Assembly: GCA_023475225.1 (NCBI GenBank)
Contig: JAMCVK010000039.1
Coordinates: forward strand, 1 to 64,000
DNA: 64,000 nt
Origin: Chloroflexota bacterium
Lineage (GTDB): Bacteria > Chloroflexota > UBA6077 > FW602-bin22 > JAMCVK01
Reading direction: 5' to 3'
The notes beneath the pieces were generated by a model, which worked only from the letters and a program-made list of their open reading frames with translations, did not search any database and was not told the DNA's origin. Below are positions 18,070-60,199 of this stretch, piece by piece. The stretch's first letter is position 1; each line of letters begins with the position of its first letter. The translations under genes were made by a program, and so were the position numbers.

Positions 18070-18356
18070 AAACAAAAGACCCTTCGTCTACAGCTCAGGG
18101 ACGAAGGGTTGCTCCGCGGTACCACCCTGTTTGATGAGTATTAGCCTGGACCTGCTTTTTCCGCTAGCCAAAGATCACTATCTACAGGCCCGCTCTCATC
18201 CACTCAAGCGTATTAACGGTGGCCCTTCCGGCAACGGCTACGCAAGTTTCCCCTTCGCCGCTGCTGCTCCCAGGCGAGTTCGGCCATTGGTTTGTCACGC
18301 TTCCACCGCAACGTGACTCTCTGAAGGGTATTAGCCTACTACTCCTGTTCAACGCA
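18070..18356 (-). promoter_or_regulatory. T-box riboswitch, leucine (CUC specifier)
   Basis: On the minus strand the leader carries the T-box core GGTGGTACCGCGG within 18114-18128, the antiterminator partner that reads the tRNA acceptor end. Stem I hallmarks are present: an AGAGAG bulge element, a GGTGGAA distal loop near 18305, and the segment GAACTCGCCTGGGAG at 18267-18281. In that segment CTC (18276-18278) sits where specifier codons occur, matching leucine and the leuS gene downstream. Uncharged tRNA-Leu would stabilise the antiterminator and switch leuS on. Confidence 0.93.
18073..18109 (-). terminator. T-box regulatory terminator
   Basis: ACCCTTCGTC (18100-18109 read on minus) pairs perfectly with GACGAAGGGT (18079-18088 on minus), giving a 10-bp stem with an 11-base loop. 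It is followed by CTTTTGTTT. It competes with the antiterminator that contains the T-box sequence directly upstream. Confidence 0.92.
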
Positions 18357-18379
18357 TTTATCTTGTTCACTTGGGCTCA

Positions 18380-59104: not shown

Positions 59105-59158
59105 GGAGATCAGTAGCGAAGCGGACCGATCAAGCGCGGTACCTTGCGAGGTGAAGAG

Positions 59159-59677
59159 GTGAACGTCATCGTCTATTCCACCCCCACCTGACCATACTGT
59201 CAGCAGGTGAAAGAGTTTCTTTCCCGTCGTGGTATCCCATTCAAAGAATATAATGTGGCCAATGATCCAGCCGCAGCTGTAGAGATGGTGCGGAAATCGG
59301 GCCAACAAGGTGTTCCAGTAATCACTATCGACGATCAAGTTGTCGTTGGCTTCGATAGGCCCAGGCTGGAGAGGCTCCTGGAGGACAAGAAAGCCGGTCG
59401 CGTTTCTTTTGGGCTAAGTATAGCCGATGCCAGCCGAATCGCCCTAAAGCATGGAGCCGTGCCTATATTGGGAGCCTTTGTAGGTAAGGTATCTCCCCAC
59501 TCCCCGGCCCAGCGGGCTGGCATCCAAGCTGGTGATATCATCACGGAAGTGAATTTGCGTCCTATCGGTAATGCCCTGGATTTGGAGAAGGCCCTGGCCA
59601 GTCTGATGCCGGGGAGTCGGGTGACCATAGTGTTCCTACGGGGAGAACAGCGACTGAGGACCGAACTGGCGCTCTGA
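59159..59677 (+). CDS. Glutaredoxin-PDZ fusion with in-frame UGA (probable selenoprotein)
   Basis: Reading through one TGA (59189-59191) gives a 172-residue protein: VNVIVYSTPT-U-PYCQQVKEFLS. This is the glutaredoxin active-site region in which the first Cys of CPYC is replaced by UGA; Cys14 remains as the resolving residue. The thioredoxin fold continues with GVPVITIDDQVVVGFD (cis-Pro loop) to about residue 75; a linker and a PDZ domain (GKVSPHSPAQRAGIQAGDII) fill residues 100-172. GTG 59159 has GAGG seven bases upstream. The UGA, the frame on both sides and a hairpin at 59209-59223 argue for selenocysteine. If UGA is a stop, GTG 59207 would start a Grx lacking its active site, which makes no sense. 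Confidence 0.8.
59209..59223 (+). promoter_or_regulatory. Candidate bacterial SECIS hairpin
   Basis: GAAAG (59209-59213) pairs with CTTTC (59219-59223) around the loop AGTTT. The loop begins 22 bases after the UGA and has G as its second base, within the usual bacterial rule (16-37 bases, G in the first two loop positions). A mismatch and one further G-C pair extend the stem. It should recruit SelB. The stem is short and unproven. Confidence 0.45.
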
Positions 59678-59794: not shown

Positions 59795-60199
59795 GTGAAC
59801 AAGAATAGGAAGTTCCTCATCGGTGGATTGATCATCGCCCTGGCCATCGCCTATCTCATCTTCACCGCGATGCGTGGTGGCACAGCATACTATATTACGG
59901 TTAGTGAACTGAAGAGCAAGGGACACTCCATCTACGGTGAGCCGGTAAGATTGCTGGGTAGGGTGGTGGATGGTACGATCGAGCGAGACGCCAAGAATCT
60001 TATGGTGAAGTTTCGGGTAGCTGAGGGTGGAGAACAAGTACCTGTAGTCTATAAAGGGGTACCGCCCGATGCCTTTACCGATGGGGCTGACGTCGTTCTG
60101 GAGGGTAAATATACGGCCAGTGGAACCTTCGAGGCGAATACGATCTTAGCGAAGTGTCCCTCCAAGTATGAGCCGGCCGCAGGCCCTTCTTCGCGCTAA
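59795..60199 (+). CDS. ccmE: Cytochrome c maturation haem chaperone CcmE, CXXXY type
   Basis: A 134-residue membrane-anchored protein: one N-terminal membrane segment (FLIGGLIIALAIAYLIF), then an OB-fold with LLGRVVDGTIERDAKNLMVK and VVYKGVPPDAFTDGADVVLE. Standard CcmE binds haem through His in HxxxY; here the site reads CPSKY, Cys121 and Tyr125, the variant known from archaea and Desulfovibrio. GTG 59795 follows a GGAG site. It carries haem to CcmF outside the membrane. The next gene is CcmD-like and a dihaem cytochrome lies 0.5 kb away. Confidence 0.92.
   Translation: MNKNRKFLIGGLIIALAIAYLIFTAMRGGTAYYITVSELKSKGHSIYGEPVRLLGRVVDGTIERDAKNLMVKFRVAEGGEQVPVVYKGVPPDAFTDGADVVLEGKYTASGTFEANTILAKCPSKYEPAAGPSSR

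Follow-up and report, generated by a model that had tools for sequence, protein, structure and literature searches.

A predicted selenocysteine glutaredoxin fused to a PDZ domain in Chloroflexota

Within a stretch of 64,000 nucleotides from the draft metagenome assembly of a Chloroflexota bacterium (hereafter the window), we have found a gene that, as we conclude with high confidence, encodes a real and conserved selenoprotein in which a selenocysteine (Sec) glutaredoxin (Grx) is fused to a PDZ domain (Table 1). The frame that opens with GTG at 59159 is interrupted by one internal stop only, a TGA, and its N-terminus reads VNVIVYSTPT-U-PYC, with the UGA at the position of the leading Cys of a CPYC motif. 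A preliminary description, made from the nucleotide sequence, had proposed just this substitution, together with a coding frame on both sides of the UGA and a ribosome site ahead of the GTG, and each of these has been borne out: the TGA is where it had been placed, Pfam recognizes Glutaredoxin and PDZ domains in a protein whose conservation extends from the N-terminus through both domains, and GAGGTGA precedes the start. The broader proposal of a Sec-containing glutaredoxin fused to PDZ is likewise supported, by relatives with UGA or Cys, by a downstream hairpin, and by the presence of tRNA-Sec, SelA and SelB in the host genome. As had also been foreseen, a mechanical ORF call begins at the GTG at 59207 and loses the active site. 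If that GTG were the true start, the product would be a truncated PDZ adaptor devoid of the redox motif; this agrees with the mechanical call, but is opposed by the ribosome site and conserved N-terminus at 59148-59188 and would strip the first strand and the active site from a fold conserved in all relatives, and we consider it extremely unlikely. The full-length fusion has no apparent signal peptide, and a cytosolic location of the protein is therefore presumed.

Table 1. Features of the Sec-glutaredoxin/PDZ gene, in window coordinates.
Feature	Position	Strand	Details and evidence
Ribosome binding site GAGGTGA	59148..59154	+	4 nt 5' of GTG start; sequence
Sec-glutaredoxin/PDZ fusion CDS (predicted)	59159..59677	+	172 residues, stop TGA 59675-59677; single UGA crossed; full-length relatives in 40/400 Chloroflexota genomes
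Glutaredoxin domain (Pfam residues 3-62), YruB/Uxx-star family	59165..59344	+	PF00462, TIGR02196, NF041212, cGrx1 7c10 fold match
UGA, predicted selenocysteine (Sec11)	59189..59191	+	UPYC motif 59189-59200; same-codon UGA in 31 fusions, Cys in 9
Predicted bacterial SECIS hairpin	59206..59225	+	Stem GG(U)GAAAG / CUUUCCC, loop AGUUU; recoding test, covariation
PDZ domain, HtrA/DegP type, about residues 83-172	59405..59674	+	Putative C-terminus-binding loop F84-G85-L86; PF13180, PF17820, PF00595 above cut-off

The Grx-PDZ fusion has been detected in 40 of the 400 Chloroflexota genomes sampled, with 41 copies, and is present in 19 of the 29 genomes of the host's class; the loci L004, L005 and L006 are identical with the fusions of G028, G022 and G041 and have been counted once. 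Codon 11 is UGA in 31 copies and Cys in nine, one further copy (G141) standing outside this split, and in all 31 UGA copies the TGA occupies the first position of a UPxC motif (U-PYC, U-PWC, U-PHC or U-PFC). Given this recurrence in 31 divergent fusions, the UGA at codon 11 is, on the evidence of sequence comparison, more than a product of chance. Homologues in which a stop is followed by degenerate sequence had been named beforehand as a reason to abandon the selenoprotein reading; the alignment has instead revealed UGA or Cys at this codon, followed by conserved sequence, and relatives without UGA always carry Cys as the replacement. The TGA could alternatively be a nonsense mutation in a Cys-type Grx-PDZ gene, or a TGC or TGT miscalled through an assembly or sequencing error, a reading favoured by the existence of Cys homologues, by the draft metagenomic nature of the window assembly and by the failure to find SelD in that draft. 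A sequencing error is, however, very improbable because 31 independent genomes, of which several are closed, share the UGA at codon 11, and since the aligned fusions are conserved from the N-terminus through to the end of the PDZ domain, neither decay nor error explains the TGA. With a hairpin that is tied to the TGA state in addition, we regard a pseudogene or error as very unlikely.

A tree of 40 fusion proteins implies eight changes between the Sec and Cys states, at least five of which are forced by well-supported branches, and this indicates that Sec and Cys have been swapped repeatedly during the evolution of the fusion. Eight fusions belong to one genus with genomes of 1.7-2.1 Mb, several of which are single-contig and closed; this genus is probably Dehalogenimonas, which has been reported to encode selCDAB. 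Full fusions in a contig scan have come from Chloroflexi records only, in a scan that missed many and so provides no census. Relatives of the host (G011, G012) possess stand-alone Sec-type glutaredoxins with UPYC, UMFC and ULFC motifs (L116, L117, L118) alongside the PDZ fusion. In another genome (G287), which holds a UGA-type copy (L169), a second, Cys-type Grx-PDZ copy (L170, C3:255374-255880) shows an in-frame TAG that separates the Grx from the PDZ part and an ATG shortly after it, for which a split gene, decay and amber read-through are all possible.

The hairpin with a loop G that had been described downstream of the UGA is present and reads GGUGAAAG-AGUUU-CUUUCCC, with a bulged U and the G at position 2 of the loop. 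RNA folding, which had been suggested as a check, has given a divided answer: folded alone within a 50-nt stretch, the window hairpin is unremarkable (z -0.88), and support has come from comparison, namely from a recoding test and from covariation. As the codons 3' of the UGA also encode conserved residues, the folding of a 27-nt segment has been compared with that of random synonymous recodings that follow local codon usage. For the 31 UGA fusions, the mean z has been found to be -2.56, with 29 of them at p < 0.05 (p = 0.022 for the window gene), whereas eight Cys fusions have given a mean z of -0.55 with none significant, and six Cys glutaredoxins without PDZ a mean z of +0.42. Of 35 UGA genes, 33 use CTT for the leucine encoded within the stem, as against none of 14 Cys genes. 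Across 23 aligned UGA genes, 96.9% of the cells of the 7-bp stem are paired, and both sides of the stem show U-A/C-G and A-U/G-C exchanges. Not one of 500 shuffles has attained the actual pairing, count of covaried cells or covariation score; because the shuffles ignore relatedness, the argument is built on the sliding control, in which displaced versions of the stem pair far worse, and on the contrast with the Cys genes. A second set of UGA genes, with EFLR in place of EFLS, has kept the 7-bp stem with its register one base off. Taken from these sequence comparisons, selection on the hairpin goes beyond codon choice and is confined to the UGA forms, which is the signature of a bacterial SECIS element.

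Regarding the decoding apparatus, the host draft genome (50 contigs, 96.85% complete) contains a tRNA-Sec (72 bits, anticodon TCA) as well as SelA (588.9 bits) and SelB (371.4 bits), which are adjacent on contig C14. The preliminary description had held that a genome lacking all Sec machinery would speak against it; tRNA-Sec, SelA and SelB are present, and of the components it had listed, SelD has not been recovered from the draft. Both HMM searches and tblastn comparison of the relatives' Sec-SelD with loci of the host genome have returned only ThiL, HypE and an AIR-synthase-like paralog, and no SelD has been found in the selA-selB neighbourhood on C14. Within the class, SelA occurs in 26 of 29 genomes and SelD in 22 of 29, nearly always with an in-frame UGA of its own. 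With a draft of 50 contigs and the completeness given above, an assembly gap is the simplest explanation for the missing SelD, and the gene may also have been truly lost from the host. The AIR-synthase-like protein (L093, G000:C15:17420-18172) reaches 89 bits against the SelD model and resembles ThiL and HypE too; it is probably a paralog and no substitute for SelD, because similar matches occur in relatives that have a true SelD. One relative (G012) repeats the pattern of the host, with a UGA fusion and SelA and no SelD above the cut-off. As to a second selenoprotein in the host, searches with FdhA and AhpC/TSA models have found neither with a UGA. A general reassignment of UGA, for instance to Trp or Gly, would also account for a frame that is open across the UGA. 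We give it next to no weight, for UGA is the stop codon of the fusion gene itself, of the endonuclease IV gene that lies upstream and of 14 of the 39 long frames in the window, the alternative residue in the relatives is invariably Cys, and a tRNA-Sec is at hand.

The Grx half of the predicted selenoprotein is recognized by PF00462 over residues 3-62 (E 4.7e-20, 72 bits against a cut-off of 22.9) and lies above the curated cut-offs of both TIGR02196 (YruB; 91.3 bits against 88.55) and NF041212 (Uxx-star; 69.1 bits against 66); those two models, however, span 70-74 residues and include no PDZ. It superimposes on the dithiol cGrx1 (7c10) within 0.9 Å at 53% identity. Glutaredoxins that use glutathione typically carry a GGxxD segment, and the Grx half of the fusion has VGFD where GGxxD would stand, which, from what is understood of the family, points to NrdH-like reduction by thioredoxin reductase. 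A redox motif that begins with Sec has been reported for the Sec-glutaredoxin family (UxxC, PF00462; Kim et al., 2011, cited by PMC13188914), and the window protein shares the glutaredoxin fold with this family, including clostridial cGrx1, and the leading Sec with the reported selenoproteins of the family; it differs in its C-terminal PDZ, the known UxxC members being listed as single-domain proteins.

In the PDZ half, PF13180 matches residues 93-171 (E 2.1e-13), and the fold corresponds to the PDZ domains of DegP, DegQ, DegS and HtrA3, those of HtrA3 and DegS having been solved with bound C-terminal peptides. The hydrophobic-Gly-hydrophobic pattern of the putative binding loop has been kept, and Gly85 is invariant in 39 aligned fusions, so that binding of a C-terminal tail, as judged from fold and loop, is plausible. 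Compared with HtrA, DegP and DegS, the agreement in sequence and fold is restricted to the PDZ: Pfam detects no trypsin-like protease domain in the fusion, which places it outside the HtrA/DegP proteases, and a redoxin is attached instead. An AlphaFold2 model comprises two confident domains (pLDDT 94.4) with an uncertain mutual orientation (pTM 0.61).

Combining both halves, we lean towards a mechanism in which SelB and Sec-tRNA would decode the UGA at 59189 as selenocysteine with the downstream hairpin as guide, yielding a soluble, cytosolic selenoprotein whose glutaredoxin fold bears a UPYC redox centre. By analogy with the NrdH/YruB-like cycle of the family, Sec11 would attack an oxidized thiol, disulfide or similar group of the target, Cys14 would resolve the intermediate via a selenenylsulfide, and re-reduction would be carried out by an enzyme of the thioredoxin-reductase type rather than by glutathione. 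The HtrA-type PDZ, to go by its fold and binding loop, may grip a partner by its C-terminal tail and hold the redox domain against it, so that the whole would act as a targeted selenoredoxin reducing one or a few client proteins. When flanking regions have been clustered by protein similarity, no conserved neighbour of the fusion has appeared save for local, lineage-specific genes (MutS in one family, and genes resembling 2-oxoacid:ferredoxin oxidoreductase in a few), and the neighbourhood therefore names no partner. In the window, a protein with a CcmE-type haem chaperone domain is encoded directly 3' of the fusion (59795-60199, plus strand), whose conservation in relatives has not been seen. 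The sole Rfam match above cut-off in the window is a T-box leader (RF00230, 114.7 bits, 18094-18361, minus strand). It is conceivable, if doubtful, that the protein is a genuine Sec-glutaredoxin/PDZ selenoprotein in which the PDZ mediates self-association, regulates the redox site or adds stability instead of recruiting a partner through its C-terminus. The want of a conserved partner gene nearby and the unfixed domain orientation of the model are in keeping with such a role, which fits less well with the invariance of a loop glycine of the carboxylate-binding type in 39 fusions and with the match to HtrA3 and DegS PDZ domains solved with C-terminal peptides.

With respect to novelty, the parts are known and their combination is apparently new. 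The literature already describes Sec-glutaredoxin (UxxC), a Trx7/PDZ selenoprotein (CxxU, NF041199) and a MucD/PDZ form (PMC13188914; PMC9312934; PMC9402790). Like the window protein, the latter two are thiol-redox selenoproteins with a PDZ, but they use another redox domain and have Sec at the opposite end of the motif (CxxU), and NF041199, whose cut-off is 300 bits, gives the window protein 30.5 bits through the PDZ part only, which leaves it outside that family. A 2026 inventory sorts 119 selenoprotein families by domain architecture (PMC13188914), and term searches of the text of this inventory and of a 2022 review (PMC9312934) have returned no Grx/PDZ selenoprotein, in agreement with the preliminary description, in which the architecture was one not known to be described. 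A search of the main texts of articles, largely from outside the subscription journals, has found no paper on such a protein. The Uxx-star model probably recognizes the Grx half of these fusions, and the protein may therefore already carry a database name with the fusion itself undiscussed.

The fusion would thus extend the bacterial selenoproteome by a conserved domain architecture, one unlisted in the searched text of PMC13188914 and PMC9312934, and its active site lies ahead of the start that naive gene calling assigns. If the closed genomes of 1.7-2.1 Mb are indeed those of Dehalogenimonas, the fusion would be testable in cultured strains. The purpose of a selenoredoxin is usually a hard question, and the PDZ offers a direct handle on it. 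Tentatively, one may postulate a widespread selenoredoxin system of Chloroflexota, shared by the uncultured class of the host and the probable Dehalogenimonas, in which a cytosolic PDZ brings a Sec-glutaredoxin to specific C-terminal tails; if this is true, redox repair would be addressed by a peptide code.
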